64,000 nucleotides of DNA from Thermaerobacter sp. PB12/4term (GCF_003403315.2 NZ_CP048407.1:1054001-1118000), one strand, 5' to 3'; counted from the stretch's first letter, positions 55,634 to 63,121 are shown. Program-made: numbers and translations. The notes: a model not told the origin generated them from the sequence alone.

Positions 55634-55664
55634 TTGACAGCGTTTCCTCAACTTGCATACAATA
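55634..55664 (+). promoter_or_regulatory. strong promoter upstream of the B12-binding gene pair
   Basis: TTGACA (55634-55639), 18-base spacer, TACAAT (55658-55663): an almost ideal sigma-A promoter, in a locally AT-rich island. The same bases also read AC-16-CATACAATA, close to the consensus of the mother-cell factor sigma-K (AC, CATANNNTA). It would give the next gene a leader of about 570 bases. Confidence 0.75.
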
Positions 55665-56239: not shown

Positions 56240-57346
56240 GTGCGGGTGCGACGCGTCGCCGTCATCGGTGCCGGTCACGGCGGCCAGGCCATGGCCGCGT
56301 ATCTGGGGTTGCTGGGCTTCCGGGTGGCTCTCTACAACCGGTCCGCCGCACCGCTGGAACCCATCGCCGCGGCGGGCGGGATCTTCCTTGAGGGAGAGGT
56401 GGGGGGCTTCGGGCCGGTGGAACGCGTCGCCTGCACCATCGGTCCCGAGCTGCGCCGCTACCGCCTGGTCATGGTGGTGGTCCCGGCCACCGCCCACCGC
56501 CAGGTGGCCCGCTGGTGCGCCCCCTTCCTGGGGGACGGCCAGGTGGTGGTCCTGCACCCCGGGCGAACCGGCGGGGCCCTGGCCTTCCATACCGCCCTCC
56601 GGGAGGCCGGCAACCGGGCCGACGTGCTGGTGGGCGAGGCGCAGACGCTGCTCTTCGCCAGCCGGGTGACGGGACCCGCCCGGGTGCGGATCTACGGATT
56701 CAAGCGCCAGGTGCGGGCCGCCGCCCTGCCTGCCGTCCGCAATGCGGAGCTGCTGGCGGCCTTGCGGGAGGTCCTGCCCCTCTTCACTGCTGCCGAGAGC
56801 GTTCTCGAGACCAGCCTGGACAACATCGGGGCCGTCTTCCATCCTGCCCCGCTGCTGCTCAACGCCGCCCGGGTGGAAACGGGCGAGCCCTTCGAGTACT
56901 ATCGCCAGGGCATCTCCCCCGCCGTGGCGCGGGTCGTCGAGGCCCTGGACGCCGAGCGCCTGGCGGTGGCCGGGGCCCTGGGGCTGCGCCTGCGCAGCGC
57001 CCGGCAGTGGCTGGCGGAAGCGTACGGGGCCTGGGGGCCCGGCCTCTACGAGGCCATCCAGGCCAATCCGGCCTACCGCGGCATCGGGGCGCCCCTTTCG
57101 GTGGAACACCGCTACCTCGACGAGGACGTGCCGGCCAGCCTGGTGCCCATGGCGGCCCTGGGACGCCGCCTGGGCGTGCCGACGCCGGTGATGGACGGCA
57201 TCATCCACCTGGCCGGCGCCCTGCGGGGAACCGACTACTGGCGGTCCGGCCGCAGTTTGGCGGAGATGGGCCTTGACGGGATGAGCGCGGAGCAGATCCA
57301 GCGCTGGGTCACCCTGGGTGAGATGGACGAGGCCATGGTCGTCTGA
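56240..57346 (+). CDS. NAD(P)-dependent opine/octopine dehydrogenase family protein
   Basis: 368 aa, cytoplasmic. N-terminal Rossmann fold with VAVIGAGHGGQAMAAYLGLL, then a helical C-terminal domain of the octopine/nopaline dehydrogenase family (LDNIGAVFHPAPLLLNAARV, where a conserved His commonly acts in catalysis; SVEHRYLDEDVPASLVPMAA, VPTPVMDGIIHLA). Opine dehydrogenases join or split amino acids and 2-oxoacids through a secondary amine. GTG 56240 has AAGGAGGG seven bases upstream. It is followed after 107 bases by the B12-binding gene and probably works with it. Confidence 0.85.
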   Translation: MRVRRVAVIGAGHGGQAMAAYLGLLGFRVALYNRSAAPLEPIAAAGGIFLEGEVGGFGPVERVACTIGPELRRYRLVMVVVPATAHRQVARWCAPFLGDGQVVVLHPGRTGGALAFHTALREAGNRADVLVGEAQTLLFASRVTGPARVRIYGFKRQVRAAALPAVRNAELLAALREVLPLFTAAESVLETSLDNIGAVFHPAPLLLNAARVETGEPFEYYRQGISPAVARVVEALDAERLAVAGALGLRLRSARQWLAEAYGAWGPGLYEAIQANPAYRGIGAPLSVEHRYLDEDVPASLVPMAALGRRLGVPTPVMDGIIHLAGALRGTDYWRSGRSLAEMGLDGMSAEQIQRWVTLGEMDEAMVV

Positions 57347-57453
57347 AGGGCACGATGCGGGCAGAACCGTTGCGGCGGACGCCGGCGGGCCCAACGAAGA
57401 AGCGGGGCGGTGGCCGGCCCTTGCAGGGCCTGTTGCCGCAGGAGGTGAGGCGT

Positions 57454-59136
57454 TTGGACCGGAAGCCGAAGATCCTTGGGGCGGCCGTGGGCGACTGCGT
57501 CCACGTCGCCGGGGTGGTGAACTTCCTGCACCTGGCGGAGGCCCAGGGGTACGAAACCTTCTGCCTGGGCCCGGCGGTGCCCGTGGACGAGCTGCTCGGC
57601 GCGGCCCTGGAAGATGATCCCGACATCATCGCCGTGGGCTACCGCCTGACCCCCGAGACGGGAGCCCGGGTCCTGGCGGAGCTGAAGGAAAAGGCCGAGC
57701 GCATGGGCCTGGCCGGCAAGCGCTTCATCTTCGGCGGTGTGGGGGCCGTGTGCGATCATGCCCGGCGCCTCGGCCTGTTCGAAGCCGTGTTCGACGCCGA
57801 CACCACCGTCGACGAGATCATCGCCTACCTGCGGGGGGGACCGGCGCGGCAGGATGCCGCGGACTACCCCCAGACCCTGGTGGAGCGGATCGAGTTCAAG
57901 CACCCCTATCCCATCCTGCGCCACCACTTCGGCCTGCCGTCGGTGGAGGCCACCATCCGCGGGGTCGAGGCCATCGCCGAGGCCCGCTGCCTGGACGTGA
58001 TCTCCCTGGGCACCGACCAGAATGCGCAGGAGCACTTCTTCCGGCCCGAGGAGATGGATCCCGACGAACACGGCGCCGGCGGCGTGCCCGTCCGCAGCCC
58101 CGACGACCTGCGGGCCATCTACCAGGCTTCCCGGCGGGGCAACTACCCCCTGATGCGGTGCTACAGCGGAACGCGGGACACGCTGAAGTGGGCGGAGATG
58201 CTGAGGGACACCATCAACAACGCCTGGTGCGCGGTGCCTCTCTTCTGGTACAGCCAGCTGGACGGGCGCAGCCGGCGGCCGCTGGACGAGTCCATCGCCG
58301 AGGCCCAGGCGCTCATGCGCTGGCACGCCCGCCACGGCATTCCGGTGGAGATGAACGAATCGCACCACTGGAGCCTGCGGGATGCCCCCGACACGGTGGC
58401 CGTGGCCGCCGCCTTCCTGGCAGCGTACAACGCCTACCGCTGCGGGGTGAAGACCTACGTCCAGCAGCTGATGTTCAACAACCCGCCGGGCACCTCGATC
58501 CAGATGGACCTGGCCAAGATGCTGGCCAAGCTGGAGCTGGTGGGCGAACTGGAAGGGGACGGTTTCCGCGTGCTGCGGGAGACCCGGACCGGCCTCTCCA
58601 GCTACCCGGCGGATCTGGACCGGGCCAAGGGCCAGATCGCCTCCTCGGTGCTGGTGCAGATGGCGCTGAAGCCCCACATCGTTCACGTGGTGGCCTACAC
58701 CGAGGCCAGCCACGCCGCCACCGCGGAGGACGTCATCGCCTCCTGCCGCATCGCCGAGCAGGCCATCCGCAACGCGGTGTTCGGCCTGCCCGACATGCTG
58801 CGGGACCCCGTCATCCAGGAGCGGAAGAACCAGCTGGTGGTCGAAGCCCGCCAGCTGCTGGAGGCGATCCGTTCCCTGGCTCCGGCCGGAGTCTCCGATC
58901 CCTGGACGGATCCCGGCACCCTGAAGCTGGCGGTGGAGATGGGGCTCATGGATGCGCCCCACCTCATGGGGAACCGGGCCGCCTGCGGCAAGGTGCGCAC
59001 CCGCATCGTCAACGGGGCCTGCGTCGCCGTCGACCCGGCGACCGGGAAGCCTTTGCGGGAAGAAGAGCGCATCGCCCGGGTCTTTGCCGACTACGAGCGG
59101 GCGGTGGCCGGTACCGCCCCGGCGACCCCGGCCTGA
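57454..59136 (+). CDS. cobalamin-binding protein with large C-terminal domain, candidate B12-dependent mutase
   Basis: 560 aa. The N-terminal 125 residues form a B12-binding Rossmann domain: GAAVGDCVHVAGVVNFLHLA, LGPAVPVDELLGAAL, DIIAVGYRLTPET and FIFGGVGAV. The usual DxHxxG ligand motif appears as DxxHxxG (D, C, V, H, V, A, G), with one extra residue. The remaining 430 residues look like an alpha/beta barrel (DVISLGTDQNAQEHFF, CYSGTRDTLKWAEML, FNNPPGTSIQMDLAKMLAKL). The domain order is N-terminal B12, unlike methylmalonyl-CoA mutase. The spacing LG..VP.EEL recalls lysine/ornithine aminomutase subunits. TTG 57454 is chosen from GGAGGTGAGG; ATG 57355 is in frame but poorly supported. Reaction unknown. 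Confidence 0.8.
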   Translation: MDRKPKILGAAVGDCVHVAGVVNFLHLAEAQGYETFCLGPAVPVDELLGAALEDDPDIIAVGYRLTPETGARVLAELKEKAERMGLAGKRFIFGGVGAVCDHARRLGLFEAVFDADTTVDEIIAYLRGGPARQDAADYPQTLVERIEFKHPYPILRHHFGLPSVEATIRGVEAIAEARCLDVISLGTDQNAQEHFFRPEEMDPDEHGAGGVPVRSPDDLRAIYQASRRGNYPLMRCYSGTRDTLKWAEMLRDTINNAWCAVPLFWYSQLDGRSRRPLDESIAEAQALMRWHARHGIPVEMNESHHWSLRDAPDTVAVAAAFLAAYNAYRCGVKTYVQQLMFNNPPGTSIQMDLAKMLAKLELVGELEGDGFRVLRETRTGLSSYPADLDRAKGQIASSVLVQMALKPHIVHVVAYTEASHAATAEDVIASCRIAEQAIRNAVFGLPDMLRDPVIQERKNQLVVEARQLLEAIRSLAPAGVSDPWTDPGTLKLAVEMGLMDAPHLMGNRAACGKVRTRIVNGACVAVDPATGKPLREEERIARVFADYERAVAGTAPATPA

Positions 59137-59825: not shown

Positions 59826-60334
59826 CGCAACCCCTCCTCCGGGGTGATCCTGCTGGTTGGCCGTCCATTGGACGCCTGCAGGGCGGTACCGGTTCCCGCC
59901 CCCGATCGCCCTTCACGGGCGGGCCCGGGGAAAGCACGCCGGCCCGCCCGGACATGCCCTTCAAGTCCTGTCCCTCATAGCCGCCCGGGCCTGTGCATAG
60001 GCATGGTGGCGCGGCACCGGGCGCCCGCTCGCCGCAGGCCGGGGACGGGCGCCCCGCCAGCGGGAGGAGGTAGGCCGTGGTTCGTCCAGGAAACGACCGC
60101 GCCAGCCGCCGGCCGGATCGGGTATCCTCCGCACCGGCCCCCGCCGGGCGGGCGGGCGGATTTGTGCCGGAACCAGGCTCCGGCAGGTCCCGGCCCGGCG
60201 ACCCGGGGGGGCTCCGGGGGACCCGTTCGACCCGATCAGTTTCCCTGCCGCCGGGCCGGAGCCCTGCCGGGGGCGGGGCGCTCCGACCCGGGGGAGGAGG
60301 CCATCGCGGCCGGGGGCGGGGGGAGGCACGGCAG
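59826..60334. other. 509-base gap between divergent lipoprotein and ATPase genes
   Basis: No convincing gene. The plus frame of the ATPase is open back to a GTG at 60077 with GGAGGAGG upstream, which would add 86 Arg/Gly/Pro-rich residues. No -35/-10 pair recognised on either strand. Confidence 0.4.
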
Positions 60335-63121
60335 GTGGCGTGGCATGCCCTTCCGCCCCACGAGTGCCTGGCGCTGCTCGGCACCGGGCCCGAGGAGGGC
60401 CTCCCGGCCGCCGAGGCGGCCCGGCGCCTGCGGCGCTACGGGCCCAACCGGTTGCGGGAGGCCCGCCGGGATCCGCTCTGGCGGAAGCTGGCCGTCCAGT
60501 TCCAGGACGCGCTGGTCCTCGTCCTGGTGGGAGCGGCGGCTCTGTCGGCAGCGCTGGGCGAGCAGGCCGACGCCATCACCATCCTGGTCATCGTCATCAT
60601 CAACGCGTTGCTGGGCTTCCTGCACGAGCACAAGGCGGAGCAGGCCCTGGAGGCGCTGAAGGCGCTGGCGGCCCCTCAGGCCCGGGTGATCCGCGACGGC
60701 CACCGCCAGGTGGTGGCGGCGGCCGACCTGGTGCCCGGCGACCTTATTCTGCTGGAGGCGGGCGACCGCGTCCCTGCCGATGCGCGGCTCCTGGAGTCCC
60801 ACAGCCTGGGCGTGGAAGAGGCGGCCCTGACGGGGGAGTCCCGGCCGGTCGGCAAGTCGGCCGCCGCCACCTGCGCGCCGGAGGCTCCCCTGGCCGAGCG
60901 GCCCACCATGGTCTACCAGGGGACCACGGTGGTCCGCGGCCGGGCCCGGGCGGTGGTGGTGGCCACGGGCATGGCGACGGAGATGGGCCGGATCGCCGGG
61001 CTTCTGGAGGCGGCGGAAGCCGAGCCCACGCCCCTGCAGCAGCGGCTGGCCCACCTGGGCCGGGTTCTGGTCAGTGCGGCCCTGGCGGTGTGCGCCGTGG
61101 TGGTGGTCCTGGGGGTGGTCCAGGGCGAGCGCCTGGCGTCCATGTTCCTGGCCGGCGTCAGCCTGGCGGTGGCGGCGGTGCCGGAGGGCCTTCCGGCCGT
61201 GGTCACCATCGTCCTGGCCCTGGGCGTCCAGCGGATGGTGCAGGCCAATGCCATCATCCGCCGGTTGCCGGCGGTGGAGACCCTGGGGTGTGCCACGGTG
61301 ATCTGCTCCGACAAGACGGGGACCCTGACGGAAAACCGCATGACGGCCCGCCGAGCGATCACCGCCAGCGGCCGGTTCGCCCGCACCGCCGAAGGGGAAC
61401 CCTGGAGGCCCGAGGCCGGCGGGGAAGAGGGGGAGGCCGGGGGGCCGGGGCGGCCGGTTGCCGGTGCCCGGACGCCGGCCCCGGCAGTGGGGGCCGGAGC
61501 CGGGGCCGGGCGGGCCGGTGGGCCGGGGGGCGGCCCGGCCGCGGAACTGCAGTTGCTTCTGGAAGCGGTGGCTTTGTGCAACAACGCGGTGCCCGTCAGG
61601 GCCGGGGACGACCCCACGGGGGATCCCACGGAGGTTGGCCTGGTCAAGGCCGCCTGGGCCGGGGGCATCGACGCCCGGCGGCTGCAACGGGAGCGTCCCC
61701 GGCTGGCCGAGCACCCCTTCTCCTCGGAACGGCGCCGCATGGCCGTCGTCTGCCGTGACGCCCAGGGCCGGGCCGTGAGCTACGTCAAGGGCGCGCCCGA
61801 GGTGGTGCTGGAGCGGTGCCGGTTCCTCTGGCGGGAGGGGCGGGCCGTCCCCCTGGGCGAAGGGGACCGGCACCGGATGGCCGCCGCGGCGGCGGCCATG
61901 GCCGAACAGGCCCTGCGGGTCCTGGCGGTGGCCGTCCGGGTGCTGGGGCCCGGGGACGACCCTGAGGACGAGGCGGTGGCGGAAGGGGACCTGGTGCTGG
62001 CCGGCCTGATCGGTCTGATGGACCCGCCCCGCCCCGAGGTGCCCGCGGCCATCGCTCGCTGCCGGCAGGCGGGCATCCGGCCGGTGATGGTCACCGGCGA
62101 CCACGCCCGCACGGCGGCGGCCATCGGCCGGGAGCTGGGCCTCCTGGCCGGCGGCGACCCGGTGCTGGAGGGGCGGGACCTGGACGAGCTGGACGACGAG
62201 CAGCTGGCCCGCAGGGTGGGCCAGGTGGCCGTCTTCGCCCGGGTGGCGCCGGAACACAAGCTGCGGATCGTCCGCGCCCTCAAGCGCCAGGGCGAGGTGG
62301 TGGGAATGACGGGGGACGGGGTGAACGACGCCCCCGCCCTCAAGGAGGCCCACATCGGCATCGCCATGGGCCGCACGGGCACCGATGTGACCCGGGAGGC
62401 GGCGGACATGATCCTGACCGACGACAACTTCGCCTCCATCGTCGGCGCCGTGGAGCAGGGCCGGGCCATCTACGACAACATCCGCAAGTTCATCCGCTAC
62501 CTCCTGGCGTGCAACACCGGGGAGATCCTGGTGATGTTCCTCGCCCTGCTGGCGGGCTTGCCTTTGCCGCTGCGCCCGATCCACATCCTGCTGGTCAACC
62601 TGGTCACCGACGGCCTGCCGGCCGTGGCCCTGGGCCTGGAACCGGCGGAACCCGACGTGATGAACCGGCCCCCGCGGCACCCCCGGGAAAGCCTCTTCGC
62701 GGGCGGCCTGGGGCGGCGGGTGCTGATCCGGGGGGCCGTCATCGGCGTCACCACCCTGGCCCTGTTCGTCCTGGGGTCGGCGGGCGGCGACCTGGAGCGG
62801 GGCCGGACCATGGCCCTGGCGGGGCTGGTCCTGAGCCAGATGATCCACGTCTTCGATTGCCGGTCCGAACGGCGATCCGCCTTCGACGTGCCCCTCTCCG
62901 CCAACCCCGCCCTGGTGGCGGCTGTGGCCTCGTCGGTGGCCGTGCTGCTGGCGGTGGTCTACTGGGAGCCCCTGGCCCGACATTTCTATACGGTGCCCCT
63001 GCGCCCGGGGGACTGGGTCATGGTGCTGGGCGGGGTCTTGCTGCCCTGGGTGGCGCTGCTGGTGCGCCGGTCGCTGGTGGGAAGCCGGCCCCAGGCCGCC
63101 GTGGGGTCGAGCCGAGCCTAG
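60335..63121 (+). CDS. cation-transporting P-type ATPase (calcium, P2A)
   Basis: Membrane ion pump, 928 aa. It starts MAWHALPPHECLALLGTGPE, the standard N-terminal domain of bacterial SERCA-like pumps; GTG 60335 has GGGGGGAGG eight bases upstream. Motifs: TGES in the actuator loop, AAVPEGLP in M4, phosphorylation site SDKTGTLT with Asp326, KGAPEVVLERC, MVTGDH, MTGDGVNDAPALK and NLVTDGLPAVALG in M6. The M4 and M6 residues point to Ca2+, but Mn2+ is possible. A Gly/Pro-rich insert of about 45 residues lies in the nucleotide-binding domain just after the phosphorylation site. An alternative start at 60077 would give 1014 aa. Confidence 0.92.
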   Translation: MAWHALPPHECLALLGTGPEEGLPAAEAARRLRRYGPNRLREARRDPLWRKLAVQFQDALVLVLVGAAALSAALGEQADAITILVIVIINALLGFLHEHKAEQALEALKALAAPQARVIRDGHRQVVAAADLVPGDLILLEAGDRVPADARLLESHSLGVEEAALTGESRPVGKSAAATCAPEAPLAERPTMVYQGTTVVRGRARAVVVATGMATEMGRIAGLLEAAEAEPTPLQQRLAHLGRVLVSAALAVCAVVVVLGVVQGERLASMFLAGVSLAVAAVPEGLPAVVTIVLALGVQRMVQANAIIRRLPAVETLGCATVICSDKTGTLTENRMTARRAITASGRFARTAEGEPWRPEAGGEEGEAGGPGRPVAGARTPAPAVGAGAGAGRAGGPGGGPAAELQLLLEAVALCNNAVPVRAGDDPTGDPTEVGLVKAAWAGGIDARRLQRERPRLAEHPFSSERRRMAVVCRDAQGRAVSYVKGAPEVVLERCRFLWREGRAVPLGEGDRHRMAAAAAAMAEQALRVLAVAVRVLGPGDDPEDEAVAEGDLVLAGLIGLMDPPRPEVPAAIARCRQAGIRPVMVTGDHARTAAAIGRELGLLAGGDPVLEGRDLDELDDEQLARRVGQVAVFARVAPEHKLRIVRALKRQGEVVGMTGDGVNDAPALKEAHIGIAMGRTGTDVTREAADMILTDDNFASIVGAVEQGRAIYDNIRKFIRYLLACNTGEILVMFLALLAGLPLPLRPIHILLVNLVTDGLPAVALGLEPAEPDVMNRPPRHPRESLFAGGLGRRVLIRGAVIGVTTLALFVLGSAGGDLERGRTMALAGLVLSQMIHVFDCRSERRSAFDVPLSANPALVAAVASSVAVLLAVVYWEPLARHFYTVPLRPGDWVMVLGGVLLPWVALLVRRSLVGSRPQAAVGSSRA

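Follow-up and report, generated by a model that had tools for sequence, protein, structure and literature searches.

A predicted B12-dependent mutase beside an opine dehydrogenase in Thermaerobacter: a candidate pathway to an opine-derived osmolyte

Why does a gene for an opine dehydrogenase stand before a gene for a protein with a vitamin B12-binding domain? The two genes lie on the same strand, few bases apart, in the single-contig genome (2.82 Mb) of Thermaerobacter sp. PB12/4term, within a stretch of 64,000 nucleotides (NZ_CP048407.1:1054001-1118000) that was analysed as a whole and is called the window below; positions are counted from its first letter. A preliminary description of the window had seen in them an undescribed system dependent on adenosylcobalamin (AdoCbl), acting on an amino-acid-derived substrate. 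Both adjacent genes proved real, with profile matches to PF02317 and PF02310 respectively. With a probability of about 0.5, we consider the pair to be a two-enzyme biosynthetic unit which makes an opine-derived osmolyte and which is repressed by cyclic di-AMP (c-di-AMP) in many relatives. The enzyme class of the mutase is well supported by profiles and a structure model; its reaction and product we infer.

Conservation of the pair and class of the mutase

Is the pairing of the two genes more than chance? Among 80 relatives from GTDB genomes, the dehydrogenase was found in the same locus in 77, and in almost every one of these it adjoins the B12 gene. Two of the three exceptions lie near contig ends, and in locus L089 the pair is split by other operon genes. 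The dehydrogenase stands upstream in Firmicutes, Bacteroidota and several archaeal metagenome-assembled genomes (MAGs), but follows the mutase in Thermoproteota MAGs and most Chloroflexota, so that the survey of genome neighbourhoods suggested in the preliminary description bears out the pair in both orders. The distance matrices of mutase and dehydrogenase are strongly correlated over 74 pairs (r = 0.88), a value reached in 0 of 2000 permutations. The pairing is far from chance. In a sample of 398 genomes of the phylum, approximately 82 carry the mutase. Two deeply divergent subfamilies also have a dehydrogenase adjoining the mutase, and one divergent subfamily is a fusion of B12 domain, barrel and MutL of 1214-1233 aa. 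Such single chains, with a MutE-like barrel and a divergent opine dehydrogenase upstream, are seen in L145 (1739-5383) and L146 (7306-11007, minus strand), and would be useful for the study of reactivase coupling. A subfamily II mutase in L148 (8466-10369) is read in two overlapping frames, which may be a frameshift or a sequencing error.

To which family does the C-terminal part of the mutase belong? The preliminary description could not assign these roughly 430 residues to a known mutase; they are homologous to glutamate mutase E (MutE) by two comparisons. In an AlphaFold2 model (mean pLDDT 90, pTM 0.87; residues 1-33 unstructured), the top Foldseek matches in the Protein Data Bank are glutamate mutase E chains (6h9e_B, E 7e-17, TM 0.67 normalised to target length); below them rank ornithine 4,5- and lysine 5,6-aminomutase, then methylmalonyl-CoA mutase. 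The profile-profile alignment by hhalign places residues 165-593 on MutE 1-432 with E 2.3e-11. The Pfam family Met_asp_mut_E comes just under its cut-off for the window mutase (E 5.7e-6); 10 of 14 relatives match it, the best of them with E 1e-14. A divergent TIM barrel of the glutamate-mutase-E type is well supported by these profiles and by the model. The preliminary description had offered a match of this domain to a characterised family as one half of a test against itself, and the barrel does fall into such a family, the glutamate mutase E fold.

Is the protein then a glutamate mutase? MutE residues R66, R100 and R149, which we take to be the arginine claw clamping glutamate, align with H191, Q225 and Y270, each invariant in 50 of 50 sequences. 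Glutamate mutase itself is ruled out by this replacement. Other basic residues are invariant in the barrel (R189, R268, R305, R342, R411, H337, H444 and H453). The invariant E450 aligns with a conserved MutE glutamate, presumably that near E330. Judged from the alignment, the MutE fold is kept and its substrate pocket is rebuilt, because the claw arginines are replaced and different basic residues are invariant. The likeness in logic to lysine and ornithine aminomutases, as had been suggested, does not hold, since the segment with their pyridoxal phosphate (PLP) lysine (OraE K629) is missing in the B12/barrel family. Besides, a distinct MutE-like family of 405-434 aa, about 34% identical to MutE over some 320-380 residues, was seen in other genomes of the phylum (L152, L153, L154), with no dehydrogenase partner within the stretches surveyed.

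The N-terminal domain matches PF02310 with E 1.5e-7, a score just under the Pfam cut-off in the window sequence. Its motif had been read as DxxHxxG. In a gap-free alignment with 47 relatives it becomes G46-x-C48-V-H50-V-x-G53, that is, DxHxxG with the Asp changed to Cys and no extra residue. Position 47, the Asp of the first reading, varies among N, E and D; at position 48, 44 of the 47 have Cys and the other 3 have Asp; H50 and G53 are found in all, both glycines of the motif being invariant. The divergent subfamily II keeps the canonical DAHTLG. No conserved Lys was found in the B12 domain in the alignment of relatives. From its conservation H50 is predicted to be the axial cobalt ligand. 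The reactivase MutL is operonic in L089, L100 and L107, and in G362, G334, G313 and G218. In the window genome MutL and a PduO adenosyltransferase are encoded elsewhere in the chromosome, so a lack of cobalamin supply is ruled out as an objection.

Predicted substrates and genomic context

Which substrate might the dehydrogenase use? The enzyme matches the PF02317 Octopine_DH profile (E 2.2e-49), and its nearest solved structure is 1bg6 (E 8e-85), the Arthrobacter N-(1-D-carboxylethyl)-L-norvaline dehydrogenase (ArODH). Among 74 dehydrogenase partners, G10, G12 and G15 of the N-terminal GxGxxG NAD(P) fold are each present in all, and alignment with 1bg6 shows the catalytic dyad H201 (74/74) and D296 (72/74) and the active-site W257 (73/74). 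The specificity pair R109 and G197 (ArODH 111 and 198) is present in all 74, and is also kept in subfamilies II and III; R34, at a position reported to indicate NADPH, is present in 68. Six hot-spring opine dehydrogenases (mODHs) related to the Arthrobacter enzyme have been characterised (Telek et al. 2024, PMC10787698); they favour L-aspartate and L-glutamate with pyruvate, and a swap of the Arg/Gly pair flipped ArODH and mODH-582 between L-Phe and L-Asp. Because R109 and G197 match this Arg/Gly pair, which was shown to select L-aspartate with pyruvate, the dehydrogenase is predicted to be specific for acidic amino acids; the alignment likewise predicts that it is NADPH-dependent.

Is there any regulatory signal common to these operons? 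In L034, L054 and L075 the operon is preceded by a c-di-AMP riboswitch (Rfam RF00379), more appeared on a wider search, and overall such riboswitches stand at the operon head in about 31 distinct loci. A model named R1, built from 11 of them, gave 21 matches over 1.48 Mb. Of these, 19 directly precede the dehydrogenase and one precedes an ATP-grasp ligase at the head of the operon; the last, on a Chloroflexota contig, directly precedes the B12 gene. In G310 the riboswitch is on the dehydrogenase even though the mutase lies about 196 kb away. Note that the 13 genomes searched hold only 0 to 3 c-di-AMP riboswitches each. In the window genome a sub-threshold match of 27 bits lies at G000:C1:610893-611128 (minus strand). 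A divergent c-di-AMP riboswitch was also sought in the window leader, where nothing rose above noise. A precedent for this kind of control is ablA, a gene under a tandem Na+ and c-di-AMP riboswitch, whose lysine 2,3-aminomutase makes beta-lysine, an osmolyte precursor (PMC9337991).

What other genes accompany the pair? An AsnB-like enzyme adjoins it in 24 loci from several phyla, and some of these enzymes have lost the glutaminase Cys or have a shortened glutaminase domain. AsnB-like proteins of 442-456 aa with a short glutaminase domain and no Cys1 stand beside the pair in L047, L058, L070, L082, L094, L096 and L109. By their sequences, such short enzymes are candidate ammonia-dependent amide synthetases with an acidic substrate. 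Beta-lactam synthetase has Tyr in place of the catalytic-loop Glu. Every readable AsnB-like catalytic loop keeps the amidotransferase Glu (GEGADE), and a lactam synthetase role is ruled out where the loop is readable. In L034, L196 and L197 the dehydrogenase is separated from the riboswitch by an ATP-grasp enzyme of the D-Ala-D-Ala ligase type; L089 also has such an enzyme, adjoining its dehydrogenase. In two loci a GLUCM-like protein (PF14336) stands between the mutase and AsnB. Beyond AsnB, the ATP-grasp ligase, MutL and GLUCM, no neighbour pattern across phyla was seen in the surveyed loci. The window genome has an AsnB elsewhere, away from the pair. Such ligases agree with the predicted opine, whose aspartate-type carboxylate they could amidate.

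The proposed pathway and its rivals

How might the two enzymes work together? In a first step, which is a strong inference, the dehydrogenase would condense pyruvate with an acidic L-amino acid, L-aspartate or another, and use NADPH to reduce the imine formed, the product being N-[(1R)-1-carboxyethyl]-L-aspartate. In a second step, whose class follows by homology and whose substrate is our proposal, the mutase would bind AdoCbl with H50 as axial ligand, and the 5'-deoxyadenosyl radical in the MutE-type barrel would take a hydrogen from the tricarboxylate opine and start a 1,2-shift rearrangement. The most economical product would be N-(2-carboxyethyl)-L-aspartate, a secondary amine of the beta-amino-acid type, because it would result from migration of either the carboxyl or the amino group within the 1-carboxyethyl unit; this rearrangement is suggested by analogy with known chemistry. 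In some lineages only, an AsnB-like or D-Ala-D-Ala-ligase-like enzyme may then amidate a carboxylate using ATP. The product would build up and serve as an organic osmolyte; when osmotic stress is absent, its synthesis would be stopped by the c-di-AMP riboswitch in many relatives. This physiological role is conjectured from context, as is the use of the pair in the same way by Thermaerobacter, which has no riboswitch at the locus. The context favours regulated biosynthesis, probably osmolyte synthesis, over amino-acid fermentation. The earlier view of an AdoCbl-type mutase and an opine dehydrogenase sharing an amino-acid-derived substrate is supported as to class and pairing, by the structure, the survey and the conserved residues, and fails in its analogy with the lysine and ornithine aminomutases. 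The whole scheme together, a new class of AdoCbl mutase which turns N-(1-carboxyethyl)-aspartate into the N-(2-carboxyethyl) form in an osmolyte pathway under c-di-AMP, spread over Firmicutes, Chloroflexota, Bacteroidota and archaea-assigned MAGs, is tentative, and we hold it to be possible rather than probable.

Several observations weigh against the osmolyte pathway. No c-di-AMP riboswitch was found upstream of the window operon, even with the filters off, and most of the Chloroflexota, Bacteroidota, Halanaerobiales and archaeal loci searched are without one. Where present, this riboswitch class is not confined to osmotic genes, for it controls cell-wall genes too. The loci of subfamily III have a catabolic look, with peptide-transporter genes and a C26 peptidase beside the pair. 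On the side of the mutase, Cys is an unusual substitute for the His-activating Asp, and the binding of cobalamin is a prediction; about one quarter of the mutase-bearing genomes are without a strong MutL match; and the mapping of residues onto MutE is a profile alignment at about 18% identity. The specificity of the dehydrogenase is taken from metagenomic enzymes whose own sequences are outside the alignment. In the paper that characterised them, mODH-582 has a low kcat/KM with L-Asp, of 0.04 per s per mM (PMC10787698).

Could the pair be catabolic instead? The mutase would then isomerise an opine or amino acid which the dehydrogenase oxidises, as in lysine or ornithine fermentation. Opine dehydrogenases are reversible, and in subfamily III the genes beside the pair include those for a peptide-type ABC transporter and for a CitMHS/DUF401-type transporter as well as the peptidase, so this subfamily may run a catabolic variant. 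However, subfamily I loci have no consistent transporter and carry ATP-consuming ligases in the operon instead, c-di-AMP control is ill-suited to fermentation, and the neighbours of the pair in the window include no recognisable catabolic gene; for the family we regard this explanation as unlikely. The order of the steps might also be reversed, the mutase first making a modified acidic amino acid which the dehydrogenase couples to pyruvate, or the product might be a metallophore-like chelator and not an osmolyte. The MutE homology and the acidic-amino-acid pocket of the dehydrogenase would suit such readings, N-carboxyalkyl aspartates can chelate metals, and opine zincophores exist. The loss of the glutamate-holding arginines in 50 of 50 sequences makes free glutamate an unlikely substrate, c-di-AMP control hints at osmotic state, and among the neighbours in the surveyed loci we recognised no recurrent metal transporter or metal regulator. 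These variants have a minor chance.

The two remaining explanations concern the cell wall and the loss of cobalamin. ATP-grasp genes of the D-Ala-D-Ala ligase family in some operons, together with the cell-wall genes controlled by c-di-AMP riboswitches, would agree with the making of a peptidoglycan building block; yet some MAGs that carry the pair are assigned to archaea, which lack peptidoglycan (L051, L055, L096, L100, L107), and the commonest ligase neighbour is AsnB-like, which leaves a peptidoglycan role very unlikely. As to a barrel that works without cobalamin, beside a B12 domain that no longer binds it, the Asp to Cys change and the sub-threshold Pfam score of the window protein are what one would expect. 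The invariant His and both Gly in 47 sequences, the Asp kept in three relatives and in subfamily II, and the MutL fused or adjoining in several lineages make it extremely improbable.

The Thermaerobacter locus and comparison with known systems

The features of the locus are collected in Table 1. The annotated ATG start of the mutase adds 33 residues (57355-57453) without confident structure, and a strong Shine-Dalgarno sequence precedes TTG 57454. The translation start is likely this TTG, which would give a product of 560 aa, because residues 1-33 have no confident structure in the model and relatives begin near residue 35. No cobalamin riboswitch was found upstream of the window operon in an Rfam-type RNA search. 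Downstream of the pair, at 60077-63121 on the plus strand, lies a gene like those of P-type cation-transporting ATPases, named by sequence reading only; a relative is present in 8 surveyed loci, directly after the mutase in L031. This neighbour may fit an ion or osmotic neighbourhood.

Table 1. Features at the dehydrogenase-mutase locus, in window positions
Feature	Position	Strand	Basis or remark
Promoter-like site TTGACA-18-TACAAT, 577 bases upstream of dehydrogenase	55634..55663	+	Weak, consensus match only
Opine dehydrogenase gene (PF02317, ArODH/1bg6-like)	56240..57346	+	368 aa; PF02317 Octopine_DH profile match
Predicted single-chain AdoCbl mutase gene, N-terminal B12 domain fused to glutamate-mutase-E-type TIM barrel	57355..59136	+	593 aa as annotated
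Shine-Dalgarno AGGAGGTGA of probable true mutase start	57440..57448	+	Sequence inspection
B12-binding (Rossmann-type) domain, residues 39-151, motif G-D-C-V-H-V-A-G	57469..57807	+	Profile and alignment
Codon of H50, predicted axial cobalt ligand, invariant 47/47	57502..57504	+	Alignment
MutE-like TIM barrel, residues 165-593	57847..59133	+	Profile-profile alignment and structure model

Is such a pair new? It is not undescribed, as had been thought: a B12-dependent family always adjoining PF02317, with function unknown, was predicted by Zhang et al. in 2009 (PMC2667541), with asparagine synthase and D-Ala:D-Ala ligase in its vicinity and 11 bacteria listed. The window pair resembles that family in the PF02317 adjacency and in the nearby AsnB and D-Ala-D-Ala ligase, its membership being taken from the description alone. 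That paper differs from our account in placing the TIM-barrel-like part N-terminal, and its available part proposes no mutase class, regulation or substrate (PMC2667541). Our literature search found no later report of the function of the 2009 family, and no paper linking a B12 family of this kind to glutamate mutase, c-di-AMP or the characterised dehydrogenases, with the limit that earlier riboswitch gene lists may hold the association. Apparently new, as no report was found, are the c-di-AMP riboswitch at the operon head in about 31 relatives, the MutL operonic or fused in some, and the Arg/Gly aspartate pair in the dehydrogenase. With these links the family acquires a mechanistic class, predicted substrates (L-aspartate, pyruvate and NADPH) and, in c-di-AMP and osmotic stress, a possible physiological context. 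If the pathway is true, B12 chemistry would be extended to the rearrangement of the carbon skeleton or amino group of an opine, and many anaerobes and thermophiles would make a compatible solute by a new type of route.

Among known enzymes, glutamate mutase (MutS/MutE, EC 5.4.99.1; PF06368, 1cb7/6h9e) shares with the window protein the barrel fold, the type of B12 domain and the association with MutL. The window protein differs in being a single chain with the B12 domain first, and its family differs in the replaced arginine claw, the Asp to Cys change in the motif, and the opine dehydrogenase partner. The D-ornithine 4,5- and lysine 5,6-aminomutases (3kow, 1xrs, 8t0v) are structural neighbours with the same architecture of AdoCbl barrel and B12 domain, while the insert that holds their PLP lysine is absent from the window family. 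The enzymes of the ablA/eam operons are radical S-adenosylmethionine aminomutases. The dehydrogenase is like the mODHs and ArODH (PMC10787698; 1bg6) in its His-Asp dyad, in the Arg/Gly specificity pair of the mODHs and in the Arg at the NADPH position; those enzymes were studied as biocatalysts, and in the available part of the paper no connection to a B12 enzyme or to c-di-AMP is made. In regulation, the nearest likeness is to the ablA/eam operons under Na+ and c-di-AMP riboswitches (PMC9337991), where a rearranging enzyme for an unusual amino acid is likewise under c-di-AMP control; the difference is that the window-type mutase is predicted to be AdoCbl-dependent and coupled to the formation of an opine.

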